The notes below the pieces were generated by a model, which was not told where the DNA came from, did not search any database, and was given only the letters and a program-made list of their open reading frames with translations. This document shows, one piece after another, positions 2,201 through 47,555 of a stretch of 64,000 nucleotides of DNA. A program made the translations under genes and the position numbers. The number at the start of each line of letters is the position of its first letter. Position 1 is the first letter of the stretch. Source of the DNA: Daucus carota subsp. sativus (Eukaryota; Streptophyta; Magnoliopsida; Apiales; Apiaceae); contig NC_030381.2 in the NCBI RefSeq assembly GCF_001625215.2, positions 48,073,214 to 48,137,213 on the forward strand, in the 5' to 3' direction.

Positions 2201-2929
2201 ATAATTTATAACAGAAAATATTAGTTTAATGTTTTAAAAATTCCCGATTAATCTTTAATTATTTCTTAAAAAATATTTAATGATTTATTGACTAAAAATT
2301 TATAATTTCTTTTTAGAAAAATCTGATAAATCCTGAATCAATAGGTCGACCGATTAATTTCGCTTCGTGATTTCTACGATCTTGGTTTCAGATAGTAGTA
2401 ATAAACCGAATTGAAATTGAAGATATTGTAGTGCAGACGTAACATCACTTGAAAAAGACCAACATAAACTGACGGAAAACAAAGGTGTCTAGGCAAAGTG
2501 TAGAATAGCATACAGAAGTAAAGTCAGTCAACCTTCTGCAGCAGCCGCGCGAAGCAGATCGGAAAGGATACGCTTTGCTTTGCTTTTCTTCTGCATGCGC
2601 TTACAATAATACGTAGCTCTAATAATCCCTTTAAATTATAAAGCCTGAAGGATATTCTACTGGCTTTTTACAAGTTCGTCCTCCTAAAATCCCCCGTATT
2701 TACACCGTATGCCACTGACTTCCCGTATTTATACCGCTTCTGTTTTGTTGTCGATGCTGCAAGAAGCCACGTTTCCTCAGACAACTTAAATATTCATTTC
2801 TCACACCTCCCCAGCTTATTTTCCCTGTACTTCTACTGACTTCTCCCTCAATATACTTTTGTACCTCTGCATATGGCTCTTTTGTGTTCAGCACGCTTTG
2901 TTAATGAAACCTAATTGCCTTTTTTTTTT

Positions 2930-3258
2930 TTAAAATCCAAGCTCTCTAATCATCGGGTCGCAAGCCGAGGTGCTGGATAGCAGAGCTCTACATTTATGCC
3001 GGTTTGTTGTTTAGGTATGTGTCTTCATCTACCCAATTCCTTCATCATAAGCAATCGAGGTTGAATATTACTGTTTATATATGTTAGGTATTTTTGAGCC
3101 GGGTGTTGGAATTAATTGAGCTCCCAACTGTCTTTCTTTGTCTATATGGATGTATCTACATGTATGTATATCGGAGTTAATGGCCTCCATCCGTATCTCT
3201 CAATGAGTGTGTTTTGTTGTACCTGTGTTCCAGATTATTTGAATTTTTTTTAAGACGA
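2930..3258 (+). promoter_or_regulatory. Probable promoter and leader of the Helitron RepHel gene
   Basis: This stretch lies between the proposed Helitron 5' end and the first ATG at 3259. It has no ORF of note. A possible leader exon ends near 3013 at AGGTATGT, a plausible donor, but no TATA box or acceptor stands out enough to fix the transcription start. Confidence 0.3.
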
Positions 3259-6200
3259 ATGGATAAATTTAGGCGCAGTACTTCGAAAGATGACCCTCTA
3301 CTTTGGAATCTATGTGAGTAGTTGTCAGTTTTGTTGTGTGTGGACAGTGTTATATTGTTTGACATTACTCACAGGACTGACATTCGTTTTGTTTCTATGA
3401 TTCTTTGTCCCTTTACATTCAATATGTGCAGTTAACTATCAACTGCCAGTTATGAAAGAATATGTTCATCCACCTAAAGATGAATCTTATTTTAATCAGT
3501 TGATTAAAGAGAGTAAGAGTATTTAACATAATTTTTAATTTTATTTGTTGTAGTTTTGTCCATGTTAGAAACGTGTTCAAATAATTGGTCTCCCCACAAA
3601 CATTGTGCAGGTTACAAAGTTGGACATCCTCAGCTTTCTGAAAAAAGAACTAAATGTAAGATATGGTTTCTAATTTGTATTATATTATTTCCGATTTTAT
3701 GTGTCCAGTTAATATTCTTCAATGTTGCAGCTCATATCGAGGATGATGTTGGAACCGCAAAGAAAACAGCTCTTCACACGCAGCAAAAAACCAATGTTCA
3801 GTCTCCGTCCTGCATTCCAGGTTCTAGGAATAGTGGCAAGCGATTTCCGGGAAAAATTGTCGAAAACATTAAACCAGACACACCTCCTGTTAGCTACTCT
3901 CAATGTTGTAAGGATCCTTCAGACCTCTTTAACTACGTAGTTTTACTAAATACTCTGACAAAAATAATTTTTTTTGTCACAACAGCCAGGATTTTCTCTC
4001 CTTTGACGCCATTGTCACCCAATATAGCTAGGCCTCTTCAGTCCCCACTACCAAATCATAAACCAAATGGTATTTAATTCGTTTGTGTATTTTTAATATA
4101 AAAGATATGTAATGCACTTTAGATGTAATGCATTTTTATTATCTGACTTCCAGCTTTAGGCCAACATACTCAAGGCAACAAAGAAAATGTGCCTACCACA
4201 AGAGTTAAAGGAAATGAATGTCTTCCAGAACAGAGTAAATTTTAATGGCCTATTGTACTAATTTATGCTTTTATTAGTTTGTTGCTATAGTAATTTGGTC
4301 ACTTGAAATACTTATGTTGACAGGAATTCATAAACAAAGTTCAGCGTTTAAAGAGAATAGACCTCCGACAAATATTAAAAGAAAAGCCTTGCTCAAATCC
4401 TCCAGATCAAACATCCATTCAGCAACGCAGAAGAGTAATTCGCTTTTCAGAATTAATTTAACCTTATTTGATGTCAAAAAGGTAAACGATAACTTATTTG
4501 CTTTTATATTGTACAGGGCCATGCAAGAACCCTGATGTCAATAAGATGGTATCACCTGCTGGGCACAGTAAGTTCAATTACTCTGTCCAATCTAAACTAC
4601 AAACTCAACCAAATGATTTTTATTTATTACCAACATACTGAATAATTAAAGCACACCCTTTTTTGCAATAGCCATCTTTACAAATTTAAGTTCCAGTAAA
4701 GATAAAGGGAAGATGGTGGTTGAGAATGCAATAAGACCCCAACATTTGAGGAGTGAAGTTGGTATGTTTCTCATTCAATTATACTTAATAAGAGAGAACT
4801 AGATTTAATTGGTTCTATTATTTTTACATTTTCTGGCAAATTACAGATGTTATGAATTTGTCTGAATATGATAGTGATTCAAGTGATGCTTTTTCTGACC
4901 AAGGTATTTACCATATGAAATTCATTTTAACGAATGTGTTATAAATGTCAAATTTATTTGTGTTTAATAATTACAATGCTTTTCAGATTTCCCTGAAGAT
5001 TTCATTCATGAATCACATAAATTTGGACCAACAGTTGGTACGTGACTGTGCTCGATGCCATTGAAAATCCCTTTTACCTTGAAATGTAATTTTGAGCCTG
5101 AGTTTATTAGGAAATGTAAAATTTTCAGGTACTCAGTCTGACAGGGGGGTAAATATTGACTTACCACCACGTAAATTAAATTTTGATCCTAAGGATTCTC
5201 AACAGGACTCAGCCGACCACTTCAATGATCTTGGTAATTTCAATAAGATTTTCCAGTTCTTATTTTTTGCATATGTGTGCAAAGAATTACAACAGTTGAC
5301 TAATATGATTCCATTTAACAAGATGTTCTCATATTAATCTTTCACAGGTTTTTCTCATTTTGGAGAATCTTACAGCGATCAGAGTGACGGCGATTCAGAA
5401 GATGGTAATCTGAAAACAATCATGTTAATAACTCTTGCTTTTATTAGTTCACCAACCTTAAATTTTGGAAATCACAGATTATGGTGGTGATTTTAACTGT
5501 CAAGACATTGAGGAAGAGGAACCAAATATATATGGTAATATATTGTGCCATGAATCTTACTTTTTAAACTTTCGAATGTTGATGCACAAATTTAAGGATA
5601 CAATATGTGATTTGCAGCTGTGAAAGAGTATGCTACTTTAGGTCCCCCTAACGTGAAATGTATTCATTGTCAAGCTTGGATGTGGAAAGAGGAACGTGTC
5701 AACAAAAGTGTGAAGAAAGGCACTCCTGTTTTTTCCCTCTGTTGTGCCAAGGGACAAATCAAACTTCCAAAAGAGAGGCCAACTCCATCATTCATTTGGC
5801 AGTTACACAATGATAAGAACAAGTCTCAAAGATTCAAGGATGGTATACGTCTATACAATAGCCTATTTGCTTTTACTTCTACCGGAGGAAAAGTTGATCA
5901 CTCTATTAATAATGGAGGAGCACCTTATGTATATCGGTTAAATGGTCAGAACCACCACCTTTTTGGTTCATTACTACCAGACGATGGTGAAGACCCAAAG
6001 TTCTGCCAGTTGTATATTTATGACACGGAGAATGAAATAGAAAACAGAATGAAATGGGTTAGTGTCACAGATGGTCAGCAAGTTGATGCTGAAATTGTTG
6101 AAGGATTGTCCCAGATGTTAGATGAAACAAATGAGCTGGTGAAGGAATTTAGATCTGCACGTGATCGGTTTGAGAATGGTGTGCAAGAGTTAGAAATCAT

Positions 6201-9200
6201 CCTCAAGGTATCCAGGGCTGAGAGTGGACGTGAAAATCATATCGGTCCATCGGATGAGGTTGCAGGTGTAATGGTTGGGGATATGGACGACACAAAAGGT
6301 ACACGTGATATAATTCTGCATTCACGTAAGAAAGGCTTAGAGAGAATAACAGACATTCACCCAAAATTGATGTCACTTCAATATCCTTTGTTGTTCCCGC
6401 ATGGTGGTGATGGCTTCCATAAGGACATACCCTTTGGGAAGGTTGATAATGTAACGCAGAAACAAAGGCAGATGATTTCAATGAAAGAATTCTATTCATA
6501 TAAATTGCAAGTCCGGACCAATGAAGGTAGTTTCATGCGTACTACAGAATGATGATTTGAATGTTTGAACTATTTCTCTCTCATGTTCATTAAAATTACA
6601 TAATCTGTGTTGTGCAGGAATTACACCACGGTTAGGTGGTAGGCTCTATCAACAGTATATTGTTGACGCTTTTTCAACTATTGAGCAAGCACGTCTGTGG
6701 TGGTTCCGTAAGCATCAAACAACCTTACGATCAGACCTATATTCAAGTATTAAAAAATCAGTGTCTGTTGGTTCTTCAGAGTGCTCAAATATTGGAAAAG
6801 GATTTATTTTGCCATCCGGTTTTGTTGGCTCACGAAGGTACATGCAGCAAAATTTCCAGGACGCTCTTGCTGTTTGTCGAGTAATAGGTCATCCCGACAT
6901 CTTCCTTACAATGACAACAAATCCTCTTTGGGATGAAATAAACGAGATGATGAAGTTGATTCCACACTGCAGCCCTCAGAATTCACCAGATGTGATCGCC
7001 CGTGTGTTTCGCCTCAAGCTTGATCAATTAATAGAGGAGATAAAGCAGAAGAAATTCTTTGGGACTTGCCTTGGTGGTATGTACTACCTCACACTTTCAT
7101 AAATGTACCAAGTCTGTGATTTACTATCATTATGCACTTTTGTTGACATACACTTTCTTAACAGTCATGTATGTGGTGGAATTCCAAAAGCGAGGCTTGC
7201 CTCATGTTCACATGCTGATTTGGTTGGATGCGGCATCTAAACAAAATCTCAAATCAAATGTTGACAACTTTGTATCAGCAGAGATTCCAGACGAGAAAGT
7301 TGATCCTGCAGGATATGCTGCCGTCAAAGCATTTATGATGCATGGACCATGCGGCAAAGAATATCCAAAGTCTCCTTGCATGAAGCAGCACAAATGTACT
7401 AGGCATTTTCCCAAAAAGTGAGTCCCTTTCCTTCTTACTTTAATTGTTAAGTTTTATTCTGCGTTAAGTAGCATATTCTTCAGATAATCACAGCAAGGTT
7501 AAGGAACTGCAAATAAAAGTATATGTTTGGTTTTGATAATTCTAAATTATCATCAGTCTACATACTTATGTGAAGGTTTAATTGAGTAATAGTCATTGCT
7601 GGCCAAATATGTGTTGTATTCCCAACTTGCTATTCAACTAAGTAAGAAAATGAACAATATATCTAGGTTCTGTCAAGCGACGACGTTTGATCAATCAGGG
7701 TTTCCCATTTACAAACGCCGGCAGACCAATATTACAGTTAAAAAAGGGAAAGCTGATCTTGATAACCAATGGGTGGTTCCATATAATAGAGATTTGTTGG
7801 TCAAATTTCAGTGTCACATAAATGTGGAGATTTGTGCTCACGCACGTAGTCTCAAATATCTTTTTAAGTATTGCCTCAAAGGACATGACCGAGCTACTGT
7901 TGAAATTCGGGGAAAGAAGCGCAGCTCCAACTTATTAAATGAAATAGAGCAACCTGAAGATGAAATCCAATCTTTTTTCGATGGAAGATACATTTGCGGC
8001 TGTGAAGCTGCTTACAGGATTTTCGGTTTTAATATCCATTATAGGTCTCTGGCGGTTCAACGACTTTCATTCCATCTCGAAGGGGATAAAACATGTACAT
8101 TTCGTTCAAATGAACCATTACAGAAGGTGGCTGCTAGAGAAGGGATCAGGCTCAGTCAGTTGGAGGCTTTCTTCGAGCTTAACTCAACTGATAACAATGC
8201 AAGGCAATATCTGTATGACGAAATCCCGCAACATTATGTCTGGAATGATACAGATAGGATTTGGACAGTGAGGAAGAGGGGTAAAAAGATTGGGAGGCTT
8301 TCTTACACCCATCACAGTTCTGGGGAATTGTGGTTTTTACGCCTACTCTTGACAAAAGTTCATGGTCCGACCTCCTTCCAATGCTTGCGCACTGTTAAAG
8401 GGAAGACGTATGACACTTTTCATGAGGCATGCAAAGTATATGGATTACTGGACGATGACAATGAATGGGATGAGGTTTTGAAAGAATGCTCTATTTCTGG
8501 ATTTCCCCCCCAAATCCGCCAGCTTTTTGTCCACATAATGGTGAATTGTAAAGTGACTGATCTTAAAGAATTGTGGAACAAACATTGGATTAATATGGTT
8601 GATGACATTTTGTTGAAACAGAGAAGATTGACTGGAAATCCATTACTGATTCTTAATGAAAAACAGCAGCAGTTTTATGCCTTAGCAGGTATTTACCATT
8701 TTCCATTCTTATCATCTCTGTTAAAAATGTCAACAAATATTATTTTAAAAAAATGTTAAATAATATGCAGAAATCCATACGTTGTTGAAGAGCGTTGGAA
8801 AGTCTTTAAAAGAGTACTCTCAAATGCCTCAACCTCCTCCCAGCTATTTGGATTGTAGTGTAAACAATCTCATAGAGGAGGAAACCAGTTATGATGTTAC
8901 AGAAATGGAGGAGGAGTATAAGCATCTAATATCATCCTGTAACCAAGAGCAGCTTGCAGTCTTTACATCTATAATGGAGTCAGTTGAGAAAAAAGAGGGA
9001 GGTGTTTTTTTTGTGTACGGTAGCGGGGGCTGCGGAAAAACCTACTTATGGAGAACAATGATTTCAAAATTGCGGTCTGAACGCCTGATTGTTCTTCCAG
9101 TTGCTTCATCCGGTATCGCCGCCACTCTCCTGCCAGGAGGGCGGACTGCACATTCAAGGTTTAAAATCCCAATTGTACTTGATGAGTATTCAATGTGTTC

Positions 9201-10410
9201 CATATCTCATACATCAGACATTGCAGAGTTGGTTAAGCGTACAAGTCTAATTATTTGGGACGAGGCCCCAATGCAACACCGATATTCATTTGAATGTCTT
9301 GATCGTTCACTTAAAGATATCATGAAAGCTGTTGATCCAAGAAGATATCATATGCCTTTTGGTGGAATTACAGTGGTTTTGGGTGGGGACTTCCGTCAAA
9401 TTCTCCCTGTCATCCCACAAGCTCCAAGGGGTGAGATAGTAGCTGCTTCAATAACAAGATCAAAGCTTTGGAAGATCGCCACTGTGTTTAAACTATTACA
9501 CAACATGCGTCTAAACAAGGGAAGAAACAACGAGGAGATTCAGAATTTGAAAGAATTTGCACAATGGGTTTTGGACATTGGTGATGGAAAAATAGGACCT
9601 CCTCCTGATGCAGGTGTGGAATATGGTGAGGATGACATTGCTGTGCCTGAACGTTACTGTAATATGGGTTCTGAAAATTCAGTGGAACAAATGATGAAAA
9701 CCACCTTTCCGTCATTTCTGGAAAAATTTCAGGACCCAAATTACTTGAGCGATAGAGCAATCCTAACACCAACAAATGTCATTGTTGGTGAAGTAAACAG
9801 TGTGATAGTGGACAGAATCCCTGGGAACATGTCTTCTTTCTTCAGCATAGACACAGCGGAAGATTATCCCGGAACTGCAAGAGAGCAGATGGCATGTTTC
9901 CCACCAGAATACCTCAATGCATTAAACATTCCAGGTTTGCCACTTCATGAATTAAAGTTGAAAGTTGGCGTAGTTGTTATGTTGATGCGTAACTTGAATC
10001 AGACATTAGGATTGTGTAATGGTACTAGAATGATGGTTACACTTTGCCTTCAGTTTTGTGTTTGTTGTGAGGTCATTAGCGGACAGTTCAAGGGGACAAA
10101 ACATTTCATTCCTAGAATGGAATTATGTCCAACCGAGACAAAACTCCCATTCAAGCTTTGCAGGAAGCAAATGCCTTTACAGATTTGCTATGCCATGACA
10201 ATTAACAAAGCTCAAGGACAGTCACTTGAAAATGTTGGGGTCTATTTGCCAAAAGGGGTGTTCTCACATGGACAATACTATGTTGCAGTGAGCCGTGTTA
10301 CTTCACCTGAAGGGCTGAAATGTTTCATCAACGATGAGCATGGACAAAGCACAAACATCACTCAAAATGTAGTTTACAAGGAAGTATTTTACAACTTACC
10401 AGTTGTTTAA
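3259..10410 (+). CDS. Helitron Rep/Pif1-like helicase (RepHel), 19 exons, about 1813 aa
   Basis: This is the Helitron transposase: a rolling-circle HUH nickase joined to a Pif1-family helicase. Exons: 3259-3313, 3432-3512, 3554-3655, 3731-3907, 3986-4069, 4154-4234, 4324-4434, 4517-4567, 4672-4761, 4847-4903, 4987-5037, 5129-5233, 5348-5404, 5478-5534, 5618-6526, 6618-7076, 7165-7417, 7667-8688, 8771-10410. They join to 5442 nt without a stop. Residues 1-386 (14 small exons) are low-complexity, with acidic and basic stretches. A Cys pair domain (CIHC, then LCC) follows near 400-425, then the Helitron-like N domain (GGRLYQQY). The HUH core reads GLPHVHM (near 857), and the paired catalytic tyrosines read YLFKY (near 991). 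Helicase motifs: GSGGCGKT, SSGIAAT, IIWDEAP, LGGDFRQILPV, TINKAQGQS, YVAVSRVTS. All key residues are present, so it may be active. The first ATG is chosen because it opens the continuous frame; cDNA would be needed to confirm it. Confidence 0.88.
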
Positions 10411-11035
10411 GTCCTGCTAATCTATTTTTGTAATAACAGTTTGAGTAATGTTTGTAACTTAAGGGCCTACATTTATGATTTTTTGCTTAAAACTATGCCC
10501 TTCACTTTTGGATTGAATTCTTCAATGGTTAATATGCTCACCACTGTTATTCTCAATATCAGATTGTTCTATCATGGTTTGATTTTTAAAAATGTCAGGT
10601 TAATATAATTTTCAACACTTAATTAAATGTTGTGCAATTTAAAATTTTATGTCATGCTCTTAGTAGTGGAACTTAGAGGGATATATATATGCGTGCCCTA
10701 CCACCCTTTACAAAGTGAAATGATCAGAAAAGTAGTACAGTACATGTGATATTCTTATTATAAAAGTAATATGTTATCCTAGGTTTGTGAGTTGTCCTAC
10801 TATATTATAATCAAGGAAGCAAGTACAATAATTGAGTTGCAGTATACATACATACAATACAACACTTGAGCATCTATTCTGGATCCAAAGTTCAGCACAG
10901 TTAAGCTTACAAAAGCAGTGGTTGCACTTTACAAAGAAGGTATAATATATTCCACAGATTTATTTGAGACTTGCCTGTTTAATGCGTAATGTTCCATTGT
11001 TCTTATTTATCTTGACTTTTTCTAAACAGGTTACA
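10411..11035. other. Spacer between RepHel and the first RPA gene; probable RPA promoter and 5' leader
   Basis: No coding sequence. A TATATATAT run at 10681-10689 could be a TATA box. A GT-AG pair (donor after about 10939 in AAGAAGGTATAA, acceptor AAACAG at 11029) would place an intron in the 5' leader just before the ATG at 11036. Confidence 0.4.
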
Positions 11036-13336
11036 ATGGACAAGGCTCTCTATAGCTTCGATTCACTTGAGGATATTGAGGACTCCAGAACTGACTGGAA
11101 AGTGAGAGTTAAATCTCAGTCTATTTGGAAAGGGATCAACAAGAAAACTGGTGAATGCAAAGGTTACAATATCGTCTTCTTTGATGACTATGTAAGTTTT
11201 CAACCTTGACCTAGGTTTTTCTTTTGTGGTTATAATAATTAAATAATGACTTGCACACCCTAAACTAGCAGAGCACCAGGGTTCATGCCTTCATTTCATC
11301 ACAAATAGTTCCACAGTTTGAGGACCTACTGACTGAAGAACAAATGTACCTCATTACAAACTTCAAAGTTTTGTTCTATAATGGAGATGAAACAAACAGA
11401 CCAGTTAGAACAGAGAAGCATATATATTTCACAAGTGATACGGTCATGGTAAAGGAGACATTGTCAGGACTAAAGTTCCCAAACTACAGCTTTGATATGA
11501 GAAACTTAGAGGAGATGGAAGTAATGAAAAAGGATAATCGATTCCTGATAGGTAATACTTTCATATCAAAGCTTTTGACGATATTTAGTTCAGTTCTTGA
11601 TTTTTAAATTTATTGCCAAATTAACTGTTCTACTTTAAATATATAGATGTCGTTGCCGTTGTTGAAAGTGTTCAAGAAAAAACTGTGTATATGAAGGATG
11701 CTGTGGAGAAATCACATGTTGCTTTCACAATATCTGATGGAAGGTATAAAATGCAATGCCTACATGTTGAAATAGAAACGTGATTTATAATAGGAGATAC
11801 ATGACAAATTATTGCTTTTTATATTCATTATCTGTAGGGCCACAAAGAATGTGACTTTCTTCAACGAATATGGTGATTCATTTCTCGAAGCTTATAAAGC
11901 AATTAAAGAAACACCAGTTATAATTATCATCACCTTTGCCAAGGTTACAGAGTGGAAAGGTATATTATTTTATATAGTTTAATGTGGATATGTGTAGCAT
12001 GCACTTCACGTATTTATTTCGTTATCCAGAAGTGGGCTACCTGTCTAATTTCCCTGCCACAAGATACTACTTGAATATCAATCATCATGTTGTCAACAAC
12101 CTAATTCAGAGGTTTCCTCTTCAACCACCAGATTATTTTCATTAAATTGAATAGACATCATATGCTGAATATTGAAATTGTTAAATTAAATTTGTAGATA
12201 TAGACAGCCAGGTTTCTATGTAATGGACATTGAGGAAGAAGAGGAGGTTTTAGAGCTACCCCAAATGAAGATTAAGGAGCTGAGAGACCTTAATGAATCA
12301 TTTGTTCAGGTACCAGAAGTAGTAAGTCGTATGGTTTTCTATTTTTACTGTTTTCTCTTCACTTATTCAATACCTTTATAAACAGAAAAAAGTTACCTGC
12401 CAAGTTACGCTGAAGAGGTTTGATGAAAAACAAAATTGGTACTCTGCATATTGTATAAAATGTGAAAAAGATTTGGAAATGGTTGATGGTAACTACAACT
12501 GCTGTGGAAGAAACTACCCATATCCAGACAAAAGGTCAGGGTTGTTTTCATATTGAACGGAATGAAATATTAATCTGAGAAATTTAAGTAATTTTCTTTT
12601 TCTACAGGTTTCGTTTGTATGGGTTGTGCTCTGATGAAACTGGAACTGTTCCAATTGTTTGGCCTGATGAGGAAATATCTCGATTGACAGGAAAGACGGT
12701 GTATGATGTTGATGCTGATGATGACGAGGTTAAGTTCTATCCTAACTGAATTTATAATATACCAAAATATGAGTACAGTAGTTATGTGTGAAGTTATTAC
12801 CTGAGTAATGTACAACAGGTTGATGTGAAGAACAAAATGCCCGATATCTTGAAAAGTTTAGAGAAGAAACAGTATCGTTTAGACATACTTCTTACAGAAG
12901 AAAATGTTAAACAAGGTTCCAATGTCTACAACGCTACAAAAATCTCCAAACCACTGGAAATTACAGACAACCATGATCCCAATCCAAATTTCCATGCTGT
13001 CAATGAGCAAACTGAGATCACCAATGTAAGCAAACTTCCACCATAAACTATCTTATGTTTCATACAAACTCACACAAGAAATGTTTTTATTCAACAGGAT
13101 ATCAGTAAAGAGCCAACCTCTAACATTAACAGCCCAGCAACGGAAAAATCTACAAACAAGACCAAATCAAGGCTCACAGCTGATATCATAGAAACACCCA
13201 TTAAGAAGCCAGATTTGAAGAAAGTAAAGCTTGAGAAAGTAAGTGCATAATACTTATCATCAGTTCACCAAATTATTTTAAGATACAATAATTAAAATCT
13301 CCTCTGACGATGATTTACAACTGCTTCCAGAAATGA
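11036..13336 (+). CDS. RPA70-like single-stranded DNA-binding protein, Helitron-encoded (copy 1), 494 aa
   Basis: Exons: 11036-11191, 11272-11551, 11647-11743, 11838-11959, 12030-12111, 12198-12321, 12386-12534, 12608-12728, 12819-13025, 13098-13238, 13331-13336; together 1485 nt ending in TGA. The product looks like replication protein A large subunit: an N-terminal OB-fold (SRTDWKVRVKSQSIWKG), a second OB-fold, and a C-terminal OB-fold with a zinc motif in which CIKC is followed by NCCG. A Lys/Thr-rich tail ends the protein. RPA coats single-stranded DNA in replication, and plant Helitrons are known to carry such genes. Its place directly downstream of RepHel in the same orientation supports a role in transposition. 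ATG at 11036 is preceded by an acceptor and by in-frame sequence lacking homology. The exact donor near 12321 has an alternative at 12310. Confidence 0.8.
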
Positions 13337-13881
13337 TGACGAAGAACTACAATCCCAGCAAACCTGTTTGAAGAATCTTTTGTATGAATGCACTTGCCTA
13401 TGTGCAAGTTAACTGTTATGTTGTCCAACTTTTGCATTGCTGGAATTTATTCAATTCGTAACGTCGACAATTGTAATATATTCTACCACTGAATTTATTC
13501 CCACGAACTTTATTTTCCTATTAATTATCAGGTTTGTGAACGTTAAGACAGTTTACCGTCTTCCTTACACTTCCATTGTGTACTAATATATAGGATTGAA
13601 GATATTAAGCAAACTCTAACCACATATTCTTTGTTATTTCAACCACATTTAACATATGGTCACTATGTGCTAACAAATAAATACCGTGTCAAAACTAAAC
13701 AATATCAAATGAATTGCAGATGTTAGTAATAAAGACGCAACCAAATTCCTTCACAGACAAGTGCACCTACCACAAATTAATACATTTACTGCTGCAACCA
13801 CCAGCCTTTTTAACAAGCCACACCTTTAGTTTTACAAATTCACACTATGCTAGCAAGTCACCAGCACACATACACTGCAAG
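13337..13881. other. Spacer between the two RPA genes
   Basis: No gene seen. It holds the 3' end of RPA copy 1 and presumably the promoter of copy 2 (AATATATAGG near 13584 is a weak TATA candidate). An in-frame upstream extension of copy 2 starting at 13714 exists but shows no family similarity. Confidence 0.4.
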
Positions 13882-15941
13882 ATGTCGACAAAGGGCTGTG
13901 ATTCACTCAGAAACATTAACAGTTCGAGAGCAGATTGGAAGGTGAAGGCAAGAGTTATCAGACAATGGAGAGGATCCACTAACACTGGGATTGTTTTTAA
14001 GAGCTACAACATTTTGTTGCTTGATGCAAAGGTAAGTTTACAACATGTGTATCAATTACAGTATGAGTTTTGTGCAAATTACCTTATCAACTGTAGTACA
14101 AAATTTATTCACAAGCAACCTTTGTTACAGAACTGCAGGATGCATGTCTTCATACCCGCGGCTATAGCAGACAAAATGTCAAGTATAATTGAAGAAGGAA
14201 AGATTTATCTGATCAAAAACTTCACTGTCAAGGACTTTACGGAAAAAGACAACTACAGGGTCGTGCACATGGATAAACAAATTTCCTTCACAACTGAAAC
14301 AAGGGTCAAGGAGTTGGATGATAGTGAAATCTTTATTCCAACTAACAACTTTGATTTGTTTCAGTTTTCAGATCTGAAATCCCAGGCTACACAAGATGTC
14401 TATTTGACAGGTAAATATATATGTACCAAAACTCTAGCATCACATTATAGATCTGGATAAATGTTTAGATTAACTACTCATACTCCAACAGATGTTATTG
14501 GCATAATTAAGAGTAAGGAAGAGATTAGCAGGATCCCAAATAAACAAGTAAAGGTCAAATTTGTGATCACTGATGGCAGGTAAAACATTATGCATCTAAT
14601 AAACGAAAACATATTTAAGATATAATGAAATTTTTTTTTAAACTATTTTCTTTCAGTAAAAATGTCAATGTTACTTTCTGGAGATCGTTTGCGGAAGAGT
14701 TTGAACAAGCTATGTCAAAAGAACTCCAGCAGCCGGTGATAATTATAATTGCAAGTGCACGAGTGACTCAATATAAAGGTCAGTGCATTGTCAGTTTTAG
14801 TCATACAGCTCCTCTTCTTTCTTCAATGATCTAGGCTTCTTGCATTGATATATAACACATTGGAAAATAATTACAGACCAGATTGATCTCTGCAACTATT
14901 CACCCACCAAATACTATTTAAACTATGAGCATCACAGTGTCGCCAAAATGAGGAAGTTGTAAGTTGACCTTTCTATTTATATAGTTAAAGAAAAAAAATT
15001 AGGACCAAATAATAACCTCAATCAAACCAGGTTGGAAGATCCTAATTTCTCCAATTCAAACCTGGGAAGGATTAAGAAAGAAGTTACAACTTTTAACATC
15101 GACCAAATCCTAAACCTCAGCAAAGACTACAACCAGGTAAGCTCTGTTCTACAAAGGTAATCAAGTATTACATAAACCTATTCATAATATATCAACTACA
15201 TTTAACAGGAAGAGGTCATTTGTAAGGGAACAATAAAAACAGTGGAAGAAAAAACGGATTGGAAGAGGTACATTTGCACTGCATGCTATAGGCAAACTCA
15301 CACTAAAGATGGATTACAGTATTGTGTAACCTGTACCCGGTTTGTTCCGTATCCATTAAAGAGGTAAATACTGTAATGTTGACATAAACAATTATGATTG
15401 TAAAAATTAGTCTGCAAGACTAACTACCCTACATTTAAGGTTTCATATCACCACGGTTGTGGCTGATAACACCGGTGAACTGAAGGTCGTCCTCAAAGAT
15501 CGTGAAATTCGGAACTTGATACACAAATATGTGGAAGAGGTCGACAGTGAGGTGATTTGAAAATTTATAATTACAAATTCTATGATCTTTCCTCATTGAA
15601 AGAATCACTAATGTACAAGTTTAATTAGGATGATTCTTTCCCAGAAGCAGTTAGATCTATTCAAGGAATGCAGTGCAGTTTCCAACTATTCGTTACAGCA
15701 AATAATGTGGAGGAGAAGAGTTCTAAATTCATGGCGACAAAGATAATTAAGGGATTCAACACTGAAGAAGATGTGGCAGAGCAGGAACAAACACTTGAAA
15801 CAATGGAAAACCTCGGCTCTCAGGTATTGTACGCCATTACATATATCATATGTTAAATATACCTACTAAATAAGTAACATACCAATTCTCCAGCAAACTG
15901 GGACATCTGTTCACCTGGACAACATCTCCCAACTCAACTAG
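13882..15941 (+). CDS. RPA70-like single-stranded DNA-binding protein, Helitron-encoded (copy 2), 445 aa
   Basis: Exons: 13882-14031, 14131-14410, 14492-14579, 14657-14778, 14877-14958, 15031-15136, 15209-15363, 15440-15551, 15629-15823, 15894-15941; total 1338 nt ending in TAG. The protein has the same order as copy 1: OB-fold A (SRADWKVKARVIRQWRG), OB-fold B, and a zinc-containing OB-fold C with CTAC and CVTC pairs. Exons 2, 4 and 5 have exactly the sizes of those in copy 1 (280, 122, 82 nt), so the two genes derive from one duplication, but the sequences have diverged a lot. The C-terminal tail is shorter. No stop or frameshift interrupts it. The likely role is single-strand binding during Helitron transposition. 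Confidence 0.78.
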
Positions 15942-16557
15942 AATCGACATTGGTAATTTACGCTTCTGACATAATTACTCATATACTTTTTCAGGTATTA
16001 TTTTAGTACTCTTAAGAAAATTTGTATTGCAGGAATGGACATGTGGATAAGCAACTTTTCCTCTGCCTATGTGCACTTTTGATTGCATCCAACTCTGTGC
16101 AATCCTTTAAATTATATTATCTACCAATGCACCAAAAACATTGGATTCATGCTGCTTAAGCATTTTATGTATAACTTCTGCAACTGGATATTGTTCTGAC
16201 TTATCTAAACTTTATGTTATTTGCACATTGTTCTAATTTGTATCGTTATTATTACAAACATACAAATTACATCTTCATATTATCCTGTTATAAAACATAA
16301 ACGCTGGAATGAACATAGAACCAAATTCACAACAATAAAAACTTCTAAAGCTGAGAAATGGAAGAAAGGAGTACTGATGTTGATGAATATTAACCAGTTG
16401 GAATCTGAAGCCATAACATCAAGTTCGATAGGAATACAGTGAAATACTAATACCTTAATTAAGTCAGTCAAGATAAACCTAAAAGCTAAGAATATTGTTT
16501 CATGGAATATACCACAGAAAACCAAAAGTTAAGAACAAGAGTCTGGGACACAAACAA
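15942..16557. other. Helitron 3' portion without a supported gene
   Basis: AT-rich sequence after the second RPA gene. ORFs here are short and show no motif. It contains the 3' untranslated parts of RPA copy 2 (plus strand) and of the B3 exon (minus strand). Confidence 0.4.
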
Positions 16558-16818
16558 TCAGTCTGCATTTTGGACTTTCTTCAGCACAAACACATCAAAG
16601 TTACGAATGCTTTCACTCTGCCAAATGAACTTCACTGCGTCACCAACAGCAAGACGCATGTCCGAGCGAAACTTGATCCAGCCATCATGTATGCACATTC
16701 GATTTCCATGTCTCCTGGCACGAACTTGCAGCTTCCAACATCGTTTGCCCTCATATACAGTAATGTAGTCAAGACGATCCCAGCGATCAGAAAGCTTGCT
16801 GAACTTTGAAGGAATGTC
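16558..16818 (-). pseudogene. B3-type DNA-binding domain, isolated terminal exon antisense within the Helitron
   Basis: On the minus strand an acceptor (TTTACAG at the 16819 side) opens an exon that ends in TGA at 16558. The product shows the B3 pattern: CWKLQVRAR, a GW-x-x-F loop (HDGWIKFRSDMRLAVGD), then AVKFIW and FDVFVLKK near the C-terminus. B3 domains belong to plant transcription factors (ARF, ABI3, REM families) and bind DNA. No upstream exon with a start codon is evident, so it is most simply a captured host gene fragment; a small exon upstream cannot be excluded. A 27-bp piece of the exon (16726-16752) is repeated exactly at 16875-16901. Confidence 0.55.
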
Positions 16819-17200
16819 CTGTAAATTAAAATTAAGAAAGGCCAAAGTTAGAATTAGGTGAAATGACACCTAATTTGCAGCTTCCAACATCGTTTGCCCT
16901 CTTTTTGGGATTTTCTGTTTATAAAATGACATGTGTTATATTATCGCTTCTAAGAAACTTATAATGTCCTGAATAATATAACAATGTGGTTTAACAATTT
17001 TTTCCTTTACGGATGATCTAAATTCATAACACATCTAATTTTTTTTAATATGTTTTCTAAAAACTGTCTTTTTGATATAATATTCACTTAAAGGTAATTT
17101 AACTTACAATAAAATGCGTTAAACAAAAAATTATCAGTAACAATATTATAATATATATTCTCAAATGAGTTATTATAGACAAAAAAATATTAATTTACAA

Positions 17201-17230
17201 CTCACCGTGCGAAGCGGGCAATAATCCTAG
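17201..17230 (+). repeat. Helitron 3' terminus with imperfect hairpin and CTAG
   Basis: CCGTGCGAAGCGGG lies 12 nt before CCTAG and is followed by T. The right arm lacks about two bases that a perfect palindrome (CCGTGC...GCACGG) would need, so the stem is weak. Confidence 0.7.
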
Positions 17231-18409: not shown

Positions 18410-18808
18410 TCAGAGCCAGAGAGCACCAGCATCCTTGAGGAGAGGAACAAGAGTGCCATTAATGTGACAAGCCATTAGGGTTTCCACTCCTCCCACAAAT
18501 TTACCCCCCACAAACACCGCTGGCACTGCATTCTGCTGCCCCTCACCCGCAATCCGGCTCAGAAACCCTAGAACATCCGGCCCAGCAGCCTCCCGGTCCA
18601 GCTCCACCACAGTCGGACCCACTCCCAGGCTGAACAGCAGCTGCTTCACCACATGGCACATGCAACAGCCACTGATAGTGAAAACCACCACCGCATTGCC
18701 AGTCACAAGGCCCCGGACCTTGTCGTAAACCGCGTTCATCTTCTTCTCATCATTGCTTGTGTTGCTGCTGCCTAAGGAAATTCCCAGGAGCTGGTTCTCA
18801 ACCTCCAT
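18410..18808 (-). CDS. CC-type (ROXY-like) glutaredoxin, 132 aa
   Basis: Intronless. The thioredoxin-fold domain spans about residues 37-125 with active site CCMC in the context TISGCCMCHVVKQLL. The glutathione-binding TVP-like segment is NAVPAVFVGGKFVGG, and the protein ends in ALWL. The CC-type class is specific to land plants. The C-terminal ALWL is the motif by which ROXY proteins bind TGA-type bZIP factors, so a nuclear role in redox-linked repression of transcription is likely. Length and lack of introns are typical. The start at 18808 is favoured because a TATA box lies about 80 nt upstream. The exact orthologue cannot be named from sequence alone; the CCMC site matches the ROXY1/GRXC7-like group. 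Confidence 0.9.
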   Translation of the reverse strand: MEVENQLLGISLGSSNTSNDEKKMNAVYDKVRGLVTGNAVVVFTISGCCMCHVVKQLLFSLGVGPTVVELDREAAGPDVLGFLSRIAGEGQQNAVPAVFVGGKFVGGVETLMACHINGTLVPLLKDAGALWL

Positions 18809-18888
18809 GCTTCTTCTAATTCACAGACAATAACAATTAATCTTTTTTTCAGGCGATGTGGTAAATAAAAGGGAAGTCCCCAACTGTG

Positions 18889-18899: not shown

Positions 18900-20724
18900 C
18901 TGGATTTACAATGAGTGTCGATTTAAATGTGACTCTGATTATAAAATAATTAACAGTGACACAAAAAAAGGACAGGGCTTTTTCTGTGAGACAAGTGAAA
19001 CATGTCCATTTGCTTGCCATGTACATTTTCTAACTAACCGGTACTGCACCACTATTTACTTTTTGGTTTTTTTTTTTTGCTATCTTAGTTTTTACTTATA
19101 TCTGTAATTATGGTTTAATTAGGCAGTAATTAATTATTAATGCATCTTCAGAAAGTGATTCAATTAAGTAGCTATTGTACGTAATGCTGTGGCTATAGCC
19201 TACACTACATGTACTTGCCTTGGCACAAACACACCCGGCAAAGGCTGAAAATATATTACTTGTCACATTACATTTAAAGACAGACCAAAACGCAGAATAT
19301 TATTATTATCCTGATTGCGAGAACTCATCCTTGTAATCATTTCAATACATTTTACTGTTCCTCCACGTATTTGCAGAAATAAAGCCAGGGATAAAATTAT
19401 AAATATTTGGCATCATATGTTCATCACCATGCATAAATTACCGACATAGATACATATATATTTATCCCGTAAAATTTATTTGTACTTTTATGGAATTATA
19501 AGTGCGGTTACAACATAAAATTAATATTTACTTTTGTGAAATCATAATAAGTGCGGTTACATCATATCAATTTTCTTTATGATACATAACAGGAAACACG
19601 AGTACCTGCACGTTATTTGTTTATTCTACACATGTTCATCGATGACAATAATAGTCCGCTCTTTATAATAAACGTACAACGTAAATAAAGGGACATTACT
19701 TATTTACTCTACACATGTTCGTCGGTGTGATAATACGTTATCAATAATAAACACAGAATAGCAACTATTATCATGCATCAATGTACTCCCAATTATGTAT
19801 AACATCCGGTTTTTTAGACATTTTCTGCATTGTGATTTGTGATACTTTAGCTGCATTTTGTAAACCTCGTGACAGTTTTGGCTGCATTTGTAAACCCTTG
19901 TGACAGTTTTGGCTATCTTTAGGACAAAAGTGAAGTATTTAGATTTATGGTGCTCCGGCCGAAAGCATAACTTGTGTTTCAATAAGAAATCAAGGTTGCC
20001 CCCGAATTACACCCTAGCTGTACGGCGTTGGCTTCTTTCCTTTTCTAACTATGTTTCATTAGCAATATAAAGATACTTATAATCCAGAAAATTTAAAAAA
20101 AAAGAAGTAGTTCATAAAGAATTCATATTTATTAAATTATACATGTTAGATTATTCTTGTAAGTCATGATGTTTTACTTCAGCAATACACCGTTTTAGTT
20201 TCGGTTATTTCAGAATTCTGATTCCGTCATTCGGTCAAAAATAGAGAAAAGAAGAAAATGATACGAGTGACAGGGGAAATGAAGTCTGTGGTACGTACGT
20301 AGGAGCAAAAAGAGATGAAAGAAAGGTCATAGAAAAGAGGTGATATGAGAAAGCAGCAGGAGGAATGGATAAAAAGGAGAGAAATGAAGACAGGACTAAT
20401 GCATGAGACCGACTGCTGGTGTTTATACCCTGACCCTTGTACCTCCTGCTTCCACCAAAGGCGTGACCATCGTACCCATATTGTTCAGTACTACCGGACA
20501 TACATGATACCTGTACCCAATGATAGTATAAATCGGTGATCGGAATTAATCGGTGAAGATGCTGATTATAGATTAATTGGGTGATCGAGTTTAATCGAAA
20601 AGATTAATCAATTTAAAAATCAGATATTTTATAATATAACGATAACAATTAATATATTAGTTTAATTTATTATATAACAAACATTTAAAAAAATTAATAG
20701 TGGTTGATTGATTGGTTATTAAAT
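18900..20724. other. Intergenic region upstream of the glutaredoxin gene
   Basis: No gene supported. Short imperfect duplications occur, such as GTGCGGTTACA at 19502 and 19551 and TGTAAACC..TGACAGTTTTGGCT at 19859-19917. Around 20530-20600 a run of GATTAAT/ATTAATCGG motifs suggests an old dispersed repeat. Confidence 0.45.
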
Positions 20725-21395
20725 AGAGTTAATTACACTGTGTAACCCCTAGGTTTGCTCCAAACGCAGTCTAGTACCTGAACTTTAAAACGTGACAATA
20801 TGCACCATAAACTTAATATTCCTGTGCAAGTTGTAACCCCTAGTCACTATTCCGTCCAAATCTACCGTTAACTTCAACTGTTTGAGAGGTAACTTTGTAT
20901 ATATCAGTTTCTAACAGCTATTTTACCCCCTGTGACCCCTCAAAAATTATGTGTTATAGTTTGAAATTATTTCTGAATATACACAACGATGTAAAAAAAT
21001 TAAAATAATTTTAAAATATGTATCTAGATTTAGAATCTGAAAATTTATTTATTTTTAAATAAATGATGTAACTTATTTCAAAATATTAAAATAAATACAT
21101 ATTTCAAAAATTATTTTAATTTTTTTTACATCGTTGTGTGTGTTCATAAATAATTTCAAAATATAATACATAAACTTTGAGGGGTCACAAGGGGTAAAGT
21201 AGCTGTTAGAAACTAATATACACATTGTTATCTCTCAAACAGTTAAAGTTAACGGTAGATTTGGACGAAATAGTGACCAGGGGTTACAACTTGCACGAGA
21301 ATGTTAAGTTTAGAGTGCATACTGCCACGTTTTAAAGTTTCGGTACTAAACTGCGTTTGGAGCAAACCTAGGAGTTACAAAGTGTAATTAACTCT
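20725..21395. mobile_element. 671-bp fold-back DNA transposon (long terminal inverted repeats)
   Basis: The left arm starts AGAGTTAATTACACTGTGTAA and the right arm ends with its inverse, TTACAAAGTGTAATTAACTCT. Inverted similarity runs about 280 bp on each side, including GGTTTGCTCCAAACGCAGT / AACTGCGTTTGGAGCAAACC. The direct repeat ATTAAAT flanks both sides (20718-20724 and 21396-21402), a 7-bp target-site duplication. There is no ORF. The superfamily is uncertain; a non-autonomous Mutator-like or hAT-like element is possible. Confidence 0.8.
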
Positions 21396-21402
21396 ATTAA
21401 AT

Positions 21403-22493
21403 ATCAAATCGGGAAGAGATTAACCGGAAATTAAAAAGACCAAATTGGGGATTTTCAGAACCATACATATACTTTGTAACATAATTGATTAAAACATTGT
21501 ATTGCTACAAAGTTGGTTCATGTTTATAATTCAAATAAGGCACTGACATTAAAAAAAATACTTCATTTTCGGGTTCGGATTTTATTTCGGACTCTCTTAG
21601 TTTTTTTACTGATATTTCAAATGTCAGTCTCGACTTAGCATTGCCAGAGTATGTGTATGTATTTTGAAAGAGAAAATGAGAGGCCTGGAGATAGAATATG
21701 AGAGGAAGAATATGGACAAGCCAAAGAAACAGGTGACGTCTAGCACTCATTCGTAAACCAGAGACAAACTGCTACACTACAAGATAGTAACCAGGTACAG
21801 GATGACTGGTCTCTTCTTTTAATCAGCGACTACAATACTCAAGACTTTGTAATTTTCGCGAAGCTTTTCTATTGCTTAGTGGTGTCATTCTACCACTTAA
21901 AACACCAACTTAAAAAATATAAATCAAATGCAACTCATGTATAATAAGCAAAACTGAATTCACAGTTATGGATGGACAAATTTGTCAGTCTTATGAAGTT
22001 CAGGTTAAAAATGTATGTCCAGTACGGAAATACATAAGCTAATTCAAATTTTACCAACTTGGTTTCATTTCGGACAGATTCGCCAAAATCCCAAACCCGG
22101 TAGGTTTTCCTTATTTCACAAAAAAATTCTGGCCTGATACATTACCAGGCCATCACCCAAACTTCTGTTAACCCCTGCACTCCGGTGTTCCAATGAACAG
22201 CTCTCCGCCTGTACTGATATCCGCATGATGAATCATAAAGCTCAAATTAAAACAAGCCTGTTCAAATCAAATTAGAATCTACTCAAGCTCAAAGTAAACG
22301 GAGTCCATTCAAGTCAAAGTTAAAATCTTCTTGAGAGTTGCTTATTGAACAATAGCAGCAGTTGAGTTTACGAATTTGAGTTGATGTTGATGCAACCCTA
22401 ATATTATCAATTCCATCCTGATCGAGATACAAACCTATTTAACCATAGACGAAATTCAACTAGAAATATGGATACAATTAAAGAAAGACTACA
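21403..22493. other. Intergenic region
   Basis: No coding region could be supported on either strand; ORFs are short and without motifs. A short stretch near 22235-22330 repeats CAAATTAAAA/CTCAAGCTCAAAGT-type motifs, a likely degraded repeat. Confidence 0.4.
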
Positions 22494-27466: not shown

Positions 27467-28057
27467 TACTCCCTCCGTCCCACCCATTTCTTATCAAATG
27501 GGTTGGGCACGGAGGTTAAGTAATATGTACTCCCTCCGTCCCCCTCAATTGTTTACATTGGTGGGGGACACGGAGACCAAGACAATGTATCAAAAATGAG
27601 TAAAGTTAGATGAAAAGTGGGTAAAGTGGTGGGACCCATCAATATTTAATAATAGATTTGAGATAGTGGAGGAAAGTAGTGGGTGTAATAGTAGTTTTTA
27701 TTGTTAAATATGAGATAGTGGGGGAAGATAGTGGGTGTAATGATTGAAAAACTTATTATTTATGGTAATGTAAAGAAATGAGAGGGACATCCCAAAATAG
27801 TAACTGTAAAGAAATGAGAGGGACAGAGGGAGTATAAAGTAGTGGAAAAGAGGAAGAAAAGTGGGTAAAGTGGTGGGACCCATTGATTTTTAATGTATAA
27901 AAAGAAGATAGTGGAGTAAAAGTAGTGTGAAAAAGAAAAAAAAAGTGGAGAAGTGGTGGGACCCATTGACTATTTTTGGTAAGTTTTGAAATGTAAAGAA
28001 TTGCGTGGGACACCCCAGAAAGGAAAGTGTAAAGAAATGGGTGGGACGGAGGGAGTA
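27467..28057. mobile_element. Outer Stowaway-like MITE interrupted by another MITE
   Basis: Ends: TACTCCCTCCGTCCCACCCA at 27467 and its inverse TGGGTGGGACGGAGGGAGTA ending at 28057, with TA at both edges. A second Stowaway-like element sits inside at 27528-27834. The remainder has GTGGGACCCATTGA-type motifs repeated. Confidence 0.8.
27528..27834. mobile_element. Inner Stowaway-like MITE nested in the 27467-28057 element
   Basis: Ends: TACTCCCTCCGTCCCCCTCA and inverse GAGGGACAGAGGGAGTA, with TA on both sides. The interior has GTGGTGGGACCCATCAATAT and two copies of a TGTAAAGAAATGAGAGGGAC block near the right end. Confidence 0.8.
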
Positions 28058-28500
28058 CAATTTATTTTGTGATCTTAATTATTTTTTACAAAATAATTTA
28101 TATAAACTATTAATTAATTGTTAAAGTTAGTAGTATTTAATCTAAAGAAGCATTCGGGAATTGATAAAACAAAAATTTATTAAGTTATCAATTCTAAATA
28201 AATTATACTCATCTACATATCTGACTTTTTTCGACACATATGTTAAGATTCTAAAAATAATCATATCATTCCGAATTTCTGATACGTATGAGTATCCTCG
28301 AGCATTCTTAAAATAAATATGATCTAAATTTTTTTATTTTTTTTAAAAGCTGCACGCATTATTATAAAAGATGATATTTTCATATAAAATATATAAAAAT
28401 CATTTTTTCTTAAATAACTCATGTGACTGTGGTATACTGTTATTCAAATACGATGACCAAGCCCAATGTTGGAGAGGCCCAGGTCAGATGATCAAAAACC
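28058..28500. other. AT-rich spacer upstream of the NAA38-like gene
   Basis: No coding signal. The promoter of the NAA38-like gene should lie at the right end; no clear TATA box stands out. Confidence 0.4.
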
Positions 28501-46230: not shown

Positions 46231-47555
46231 CTAGTGAATAAAGCCGCGCTTCGCGGCGGCGTTATAAATTTATTATAAATTTAGATAAAAAAAATTGTTC
46301 TACCTATTTTCTTGTCAAACATAATACTAACAGAAAATTTATTATTATTTTGATAAAAATTAATTTGGGCCGCCCTCCCCTCAAACACAATACTAATAAA
46401 GGATCTTTTTTATAAATTTTGATACGAAATAATATTATAATTGCATAAAAGTTATTTTGAGTCGTGTTCCCGTTAAACATATCATTAATAAAAAATATTA
46501 TAATTAATAAAAAAATTTGTTTAAGTGTCCCTTTTGTCGAACACAATACTAATAAAAAAATTGTTTGACCCGCCCCTATCAAAGACAATATTAATCAATA
46601 ATTATTATAATTATGATAAAATTAAATATAATTATATAGATAAAAATTAGTTTGAGCCGCTCACTTGTCGAACACAATGCTAATAACAAAACATTATAAT
46701 ATATAGATATTAGTTGGTGTCGCCCTACCGTCAAACACAATACTAATAAAAATTATTATAATTATGACAAAGTTAAAAATTATACTTGGATAAAAATTAT
46801 TTTAAGTTGTGGTCCGTTTGAAAAAAAAAATATTATAACTTAGATAAAAAAAATTATTTTAGCTGCTTTCCCGTCAAACATAATACTAATAGAAAATTTA
46901 TTATTTAGATAAAAATTAATTTGGGCCGCCCTCCCCTGAAATACAATACTAATCAAGAATCATTTACATTATGACAAAATTATAATTACAATTGGATAAA
47001 TATATCCAATTTCATAGATTTTAGCTATTATATTTTTCTTTAAGATTTCCATTTCTTAATTGTTTAGAATTATCTCTCTTTTCTTTTAAGATTTCTATTT
47101 CTTCACTACTTAGAATTTTATAGATTTTAGCTATTATATTTTTCTTTAAGATTCCTATTTCTTAACTGTTTAGAATTATCTCTCTTCTCTTTTAAGACTC
47201 TTATACCGGTTAGAATTCTTTTAATAGATTCTAGAGTATTACCTTTAGAATCCGATAAGAAAAAAGATTTGTATTATCTTTAGAATTCTTGAACATGATT
47301 TTTTGAATTATAACTATATTTTCTCTCTGAAATTTAAGAAAAATAAGAAGACTGAATCGAGGAATTCTAGAGGCGCCTAGATTCTAGAGTATTACCTTTA
47401 GAATCCGATAAGAAAAGAATTGTATTATCTTTAGAATTCTTGAACATGATTTTTTGAATTATAACTATATTTTTTCTCCGAAATTCAGAAAAATCAGAAG
47501 ACTGAATCGAGGAATTCTAGAGACGCCCGCATCCTCCTTTATATATATATATTGA
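46231..47555 (-). mobile_element. Non-autonomous Helitron, reverse orientation
   Basis: Read on the minus strand the element starts A/TCAATATATATATATAAAGG (47555) and ends with a perfect hairpin, GCCGCG-AAG-CGCGGC, then TTTATTCACTAG at 46231, followed by T. These are the Helitron rules. It has no protein-coding gene. The part at 46300-46960 is built from degenerate repeats of a unit with TCAAACACAATACTAATA, and two tandem duplications follow (47014/47120 and 47225/47378). The 5' base could also be 47559. Confidence 0.75.
47014..47527. repeat. Two tandem duplications inside the small Helitron
   Basis: A unit of about 106 bp starting ATAGATTTTAGCTATTATAT occurs at 47014 and 47120. A unit of about 153 bp starting TAGATTCTAGAGTATTACC occurs at 47225 and 47378. 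Both are imperfect, so they are older than recent slippage. Confidence 0.8.

Follow-up and report, generated by a model that had tools for sequence, protein, structure and literature searches.

A RepHel-type Helitron with two RPA genes in Daucus carota and the antisense B3 gene of its relatives, a candidate family-specific regulator

The 64,000-nucleotide stretch of the Daucus carota subsp. sativus genome analyzed here (contig NC_030381.2; C1:48073214-48137213; henceforth the window) contains a Helitron with an open RepHel gene, followed on the same strand by two open RPA genes and, on the opposite strand near the right terminus, by the remnant of a B3 gene (Table 1). The element at 2626..17230 is a RepHel-type Helitron with open genes and belongs to a kind already known; what is new about it is the B3 gene. 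Many Helitrons of the clade carry one or two tandem three-unit B3 genes, antisense to RepHel and mostly near the right terminus, a statement that holds for the host genome only. The genome searched comprised 441,086,747 bases in 11 contigs, and because the searches score the best candidates only, all genome counts below are lower bounds.

The element starts with TC at 2626 and ends with CTAG at 17227-17230, with A and T as its neighbors, in agreement with the 5′-TC and CTRR-3′ termini of Helitrons. The window copy, the C5, C7, and C1b copies, and a C8 cousin all read A/TCCCTTTAAATTATAAAGCCTGAAGGAT ... CACCGTGCGAAGCGGGCAATAATCCTAG/T, and all five are inserted between A and T without target duplication; their 300-base flanks have only scattered matches of 17-20 bases in common. 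Used as genome queries, the right end returned 9 matches and the left end 11. An earlier note on this DNA had placed the 3′ end at CTAG/T, which was borne out by the four further copies stopping at the same letters. The note also called for a search for near-identical copies, and one was found on C5, full length (15,682 bases) and 98.0% identical over a 14,249-base alignment. No third full-length copy of the family turned up. In the left flank of C5, near the insertion, GCCAAGCGTAGCGGACAAGAATACTAG/T resembles the right end of a further Helitron. An empty site joining A2625 to T17231, which the note proposed to look for, was not recovered, as no match to the joined flanks crosses the junction elsewhere in the genome; the flanks match their own places only, save one weak 74% match to part of the left flank. 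The remaining relatives are a 3,576-base short derivative (C7) and a 7,361-base one that carries RPA2 sequence together with a B3 gene (C1b), both with both ends, the 3,617-base C8 cousin at 28.9 Mb (75% and 69% alike at its ends), and a C8 5′ fragment at 17.3 Mb matching 2626-6378 at 98.0%. No RepHel relatives were found in the viral contigs scanned.

The 3′ hairpin, CCGTGCGAAGCGGG, is 14 bases long and lies 12 bases from the end, compared with the 16-20 bp at 10-15 bases from the end expected of Helitrons, and it folds weakly, ranking 56th among the 450 CTRRT sites of the window. Its 14 letters are nevertheless unchanged in five of five copies, the divergent C8 cousin included, and related letters terminate other Helitron families. 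Decay of the window copy was dropped as an explanation for the weak fold, since the other copies have the same hairpin. At the opposite end, the region 2626..3258 is the probable RepHel promoter; the heat-shock motif TTCnnGAA was looked for in it and not found.

By our own splicing, RepHel (3259-10410) consists of 19 exons encoding 1,794 aa with a single, terminal stop; all introns are GT-AG and 17 of the 18 are in phase 1. The open 19-exon frame given in the earlier note therefore stands, although not its length of about 1813 codons. Exons 15-19 align with the Helraiser transposase (PDB 7LCC) with an E value of 1.9e-270 over residues 10-1420 of 1427, and the gene product joins a two-tyrosine HUH nuclease to a Pif1-type helicase, as is characteristic of Helitrons. 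Six Helraiser residues, H593, H595, Y727, Y731, K1068, and R1457, are called essential in the available part of its description (PMC4778049); counted along the alignments, they fall on PHVHM, YLFKY, GKT, and SRV in the window RepHel, the 7LCC reference itself carrying K1068Q. These alignments agree with the earlier reading of the HUH motif (PHVHM), the tyrosine pair (YLFKY), and the helicase motifs as intact. A domain search with exons 1-14 returned no match. Thirteen of these 14 exons were recovered exactly by a gene-model search for which 23 other introns of the element served as the training set; it scored 159.9, while 60 dinucleotide shuffles reached at most 56.0 and some of them yielded no chain. 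Between the window and C5, exons 1-14 show 18 differences over about 1,100 sites (nonsynonymous to synonymous [N:S], 16:2) and the introns 65 over 3283. Exons 1-14 thus look like real gene structure that, differing near the intron rate, is little constrained. The 14 short N-terminal exons (45-177 bases, phase-1 introns; RepHel 3259-8771) are unusual next to the seven exons of Feng8, a wheat Helitron considered below.

The protein encoded by RepHel exon 18 has 121 matches in the genome, 99 of which cover at least 325 of 340 residues; 86 of the 99, the window included, are without a stop. The earlier view that an open copy is rare does not fit these figures: with 86 of 121 matches full length and open, albeit over one exon only, there is no ground to call an open Helitron rare in this genome. 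Several matches are equal in score, as recent copies would be. Five such loci (C6:30079874, C6:36891518, C7:39178926, C2:36204110, and C2:36223217), where the adjoining RPA scores are equal too, suggest a recent burst in a different Helitron family.

RPA1 and RPA2 have equal phases at their first nine introns and exons of similar lengths, and they lie 3′ of RepHel on the same strand, the arrangement of plant RPA-Helitrons. In a genome-wide positive control, 91 of 150 RPA matches are in sense orientation within 20 kb downstream of a RepHel and 59 are near none, with no other arrangement seen (88 of the 121 RepHel matches used, i.e., those of at least 54% identity with two fragments dropped). 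In its zinc ribbon (12386-12534), RPA1 has CC where RPA2 has CxxC, which may alter the fold. Together, our splicing, the Pfam matches, and the Helraiser alignment confirm the intact Helitron with open RepHel, RPA1, and RPA2 that had been proposed.

Table 1. Coordinates of the Helitron and its parts in the window
Feature	Position	Strand	Remarks
Helitron, A/TC...CTAG/T	2626..17230	+	Ends shared by four further copies with unlike flanks
Left terminus and 5′ noncoding region	2626..3258	+	11 genome matches, four others 96-98% over 633 bases
RepHel exons 1-14, N-terminal region	3259..5534	+	All introns phase 1; without domain match
RepHel exon 15, N-terminal domain	5618..6526	+	Splicing model; Helraiser alignment
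RepHel exons 16-18, Helitron_like_N and HUH-Y2 nuclease (PHVHM, YLFKY)	6618..8688	+	Pfam 1.4e-51; Helraiser alignment
RepHel exon 19, Pif1-type helicase and stop codon	8771..10410	+	Pfam PIF1 9.4e-89; Helraiser 1.6e-94
RPA1	11036..13336	+	11 exons, 494 aa, open; Pfam DUF223 3.1e-9
RPA2	13882..15941	+	10 exons, 445 aa, open; Pfam DUF223 2.8e-11
B3 gene exon 6 (last)	16558..16818	-	Pfam B3 1.8e-7; exons 1-5 missing in window copy
Deletion scar, B3 exons 1-5 removed	16864..16901	.	30-base B3-exon filler at 16872-16901
AT-rich right-terminal tail	16902..17230	+	Upstream of antisense B3 gene in relatives
Hairpin CCGTGCGAAGCGGG	17205..17218	+	12 bases before 3′ end; identical in five copies; variants in other families

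The element had also been called apparently complete, which is not supported, since most of an antisense B3 gene carried by its relatives is gone from the window copy. The one remaining exon scores 31.4 bits with Pfam PF02362, above the cut-off of 30.1. C1b carries a complete, open antisense gene of six exons and 344 aa (PF02362, 7.4e-12, 45.5 bits, two stretches passing), the protein of which gave no PDB match at 0.01. By their plan the six exons group into three similar pairs, each corresponding to a B3-like unit, of which the third is recognized most clearly and the middle one appears B3-like by exon plan and alignment only. C7 retains exons 1-4, C5 retains exons 1, part of 4, 5, and 6, and the window retains exon 6 only. 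Because it is present in whole or in part in C1b, C7, C5, and the window, the gene travels with the element; it was looked for and not found in the C8 and C2 cousins. A one-off captured fragment was dropped as a reading of the window exon in view of the sister-copy gene, the genome-wide position, and the other families described below, and C1:15493342 was discarded as a recent donor (Helitron-like end 72%, B3 52% over the longest well-matched stretch). Plant REM-type B3 proteins likewise have several B3 domains in one protein; unlike the REM-type genes, the B3 gene of the window family lies inside a Helitron, antisense to RepHel, and is mobile with the element. The label "REM-like" as used here denotes resemblance, not a tree-based class.

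As a genome query, the antisense B3 protein gave 126 matches, of which 116 fall outside the window family and form 74 clusters (117 of 496 candidates scored, so that B3 presence is a lower bound). Thirty-four of the 74 clusters lie within 20 kb of a RepHel, compared with a mean of 1.1 and a maximum of 5 in 1000 local shifts; a random-placement null assumed 48 Mb for C4, which is too short, but the local-shift null is independent of that value. The cluster count excludes the ten B3 matches of the window family, while the count centered on RepHel includes them: within 20 kb, B3 is antisense and downstream in 31 of 121 cases (two of the window family), antisense upstream in 1, sense downstream in 1, and sense upstream in 0. 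By class of RepHel identity, the share with B3 downstream is 2/2, 7/11, 20/68, 2/9, and 0/31, and from this variation the antisense B3 gene would seem to be a trait of the clade, though a single Pfam B3 match, antisense, sits 4.5 kb away from a RepHel of 49% identity. With RPA matches counted as well, 46 of the 74 clusters have a Helitron gene nearby, which in 45 cases runs antisense to B3 (null, 1.5 on average and at most 6 in 500). For 11 of these the nearest Helitron gene sits 3′ of the B3 gene, so that in some elements RPA seems to follow B3. In a control with other B3 sequences (150 of 151 Pfam B3 matches), 1 of the 25 best matches has a RepHel within 20 kb and is located upstream of it; ranks 26-100 include 1 near a RepHel, in sense orientation, and the last 50 include 6, all antisense downstream.

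Two other families, on C7 and C2, with RepHel 80% and 78% identical to that of the window, each have two tandem B3 genes, A and B; what is probably the right terminus follows the first B3 match at a distance of 575 and 754 bases. The A genes are most similar to one another (65 and 51%), as are the B genes (50 and 55%), compared with 32-44% for A versus B. Over 347 codons of four exon pairs, the B3 genes of the two families show a pS of 0.79 versus a pN of 0.28, synonymous sites being saturated and the between-family dN/dS an upper-bound argument only. RepHel exon 18 shows a pS of 0.83 and a pN of 0.12, and the B3 exons thus change about twice as fast. Among the ten exons analyzed with Pfam, the four last exons are recognized as B3 (two above the cut-off) and one of three first exons weakly so (0.0059). 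A further family, at 62% RepHel identity, also has an antisense B3 gene. The A/B correspondence in two families, together with the excess of pS over pN, indicates by sequence comparison that the B3 gene is old in the Helitron clade and kept by selection.

The full-length C5 copy is broken in all three genes, with indels in RepHel exons 12, 18, and 19, RPA1 exon 5, and RPA2 exon 6, plus a stop at RepHel codon 485; the window copy has no such lesion, and no other full-length member of its family with open genes was found. For the three genes together, window and C5 differ by N46:S36 (one-sided binomial P = 0.0015; neutral expectation about 2.5 to 1), with N11:S12 in RPA1 and N10:S20 in RepHel exons 15-19. 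On the strength of the last value, the lineage of the window copy was under purifying selection for RepHel function. Changes specific to the window, which include the stem of the other copies, affect 29 of 3554 coding and 76 of 4257 noncoding sites (P = 0.0002).

We propose, with a probability of about 0.78, that the window element belongs to a clade of two-RPA rolling-circle Helitrons with a B3 gene that is a Helitron-encoded, family-specific DNA-binding regulator, and that the window copy has lost its own. RepHel would nick at the 5′-TC and peel off a strand, which the RPAs would coat, then halt at the hairpin and CTAG and insert between A and T; these rolling-circle steps are known from Helraiser and Feng8 and would extend to the window element. 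A B3 protein of this sort is most likely a DNA-binding regulator, and its fast but constrained evolution and its place near the terminus suggest a family-specific factor acting on the element itself. It may act on the element's own ends or promoter, controlling or unsilencing transcription. The window copy, its B3 gene lost by deletion, would then rely on relatives for the protein if it is needed.

A number of observations weigh against this proposal. Ninety of the 121 RepHel matches have no antisense B3 match within 20 kb downstream, including 31 of 31 with less than 54% identity. The left ends of the C7- and C2-family elements were not located in the regions read, a right end was looked for in 4 kb of the 62% family and not seen, and between families the synonymous sites are saturated, as mentioned. 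Pfam passes only two stretches of the three-unit full gene and finds no B3 in the other five C7- and C2-family exons (two first, three middle). Between window and C5, neither RepHel exons 1-14 nor RPA2 shows constraint (N16:S2 and N9:S2), nor do the window-specific changes in polarized regions when taken alone (N:S 22:7). The window copy is not the youngest of its family, because its branch is the longest (1.6-1.9% of noncoding sites versus 0.4-0.6% in the others), and CpG is depleted in the element (0.47 versus 0.72 on the left and 0.58 on the right), as after long methylation.

Helitrons often capture genes, and the B3 genes could be host REM-like genes taken up repeatedly by different Helitrons and carried as dead cargo without a role. 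Host B3-domain clusters do exist, e.g., C1:47505306-47521466, and the window family is losing its B3 gene, of which only exon 6 remains in the window and a part in C5. Repeated capture is, however, difficult to reconcile with a near-constant position and strand (31 antisense downstream versus 2 of other kinds), with A and B genes that correspond between two families at a pS of 0.79 versus a pN of 0.28, or with the single one of the 25 best Pfam B3 matches near a RepHel, and we regard it as improbable.

Two further explanations concern the window copy itself. Its three open genes, the selection on its lineage, and its being the only full-length family copy found with open genes would suit a rare complete, possibly active autonomous Helitron serving the small element at 46231-47555, as the earlier note had it. 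Yet open RepHel exons are the rule (86 of 121 exon-18 matches), the window B3 gene is truncated, and the termini of the small element differ, making this reading doubtful. Helitrons are assigned to one family when their terminal 30 bases are about 80% identical at both ends, and by this rule the small element is not supported as a client, with 66.7% over the 5′ and 76.7% over the 3′ 30 bases, gaps included. The threshold is in line with the available part of a published description (PMC4683698). At the 3′ end there is a real resemblance (as good in 0 of 2000 shuffles, compared with 22 of 2000 for the 5′ end), and after the small element itself the 3′ end of the large one is the best-matching CTRRT site in the window; the short derivatives that truly have the ends of the large element are those on C7 (3.6 kb) and C1 (7.4 kb). 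The element at 46231-47555, on the minus strand, is a small nonautonomous Helitron of another family with tandem-repeat blocks and the strongest hairpin of the 450 CTRRT sites. A stronger contender, which we place a little short of even odds, is an intact but now silent copy whose genes were open on insertion and have not had time enough to break, consistent with the CpG depletion and the longest branch of the family. Against it, a noncoding change of 1.8% predicts about 5 stops in an unselected 8.2-kb coding set (nonsense share of changes, 3.4-3.9%) and more indels, and C5, at about 0.4%, already has at least 5 indels and a stop. That the window is still open at 1.8% change therefore implies that most of its branch was under selection.

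To our knowledge, Helraiser has no RPA. Helraiser/Helibat1 (PDB 7LCC) has the same RepHel domain order and named catalytic residues as the window element, but a 19-bp palindrome instead of a weak 14-base hairpin, and the part of its description available mentions no RPA, in contrast to the two RPA genes here (PMC4778049). Feng8 of the wheat Xuan-Feng family, according to the accessible portion of its report, resembles the window element in a RepHel with HUH, two tyrosines, helicase, and a long N-terminal region, and in its 5′-TC, CTAG, and insertion at AT (PMC13286980). Its RepHel of 1,676 aa is encoded by seven exons rather than 19, and no RPA is mentioned in that portion, versus two RPA genes in the window element; within its family Feng8 is described as the one autonomous element that is fully intact, with a RepHel gene that is active and the sole family driver in wheat (PMC13286980). 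The Helitrons of the Mothra sister families of rice, at 8-15.5 kb, similarly have RepHel beside a plant Helitron RPA gene and short relatives with nearly the same ends (PMC4683698). As far as the available text describes them, they differ in having one PHRPA homolog per element instead of a pair and no B3 gene mentioned, as opposed to the antisense B3 of the window family (PMC4683698).

Elsewhere in the window, an inverted repeat at 20710-21410 with 322-base arms, 86% complementary and 57 bases apart, looks like a foldback element. The segments 1947-1994 and 27467-28067 have TACTCCCTCCGTCCC ends, in inverted arrangement at 27467-28067, as in Stowaway-like MITEs (miniature inverted-repeat transposable elements). 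An open frame near the Helitron 3′ end (18410-18820, minus strand) encodes what we take to resemble a CC-type glutaredoxin.

The well-known accessory gene of plant Helitrons is RPA, and we found no report of a Helitron-borne B3 passenger in the titles and abstract openings of the open literature. How a transposon copes with its host can be read from its accessory genes. For an antisilencing role, the VANC proteins of VANDAL transposons offer a model, and by this analogy a large clade of plant Helitrons may encode its own vertically inherited, selected B3 factor that binds its own termini or promoters and counters silencing or times transposition, an extension that we put forward tentatively and hold somewhat less likely than the silent-copy explanation. 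In addition, Helitron B3 genes may have been a source of the multi-B3 REM genes found in plants. If the proposal is true, Helitrons would have a regulator of their own in the form of a resident, selected DNA-binding protein, their control would become testable by binding and reporter assays, and a share of the numerous B3 genes counted in plants might thereby be explained.

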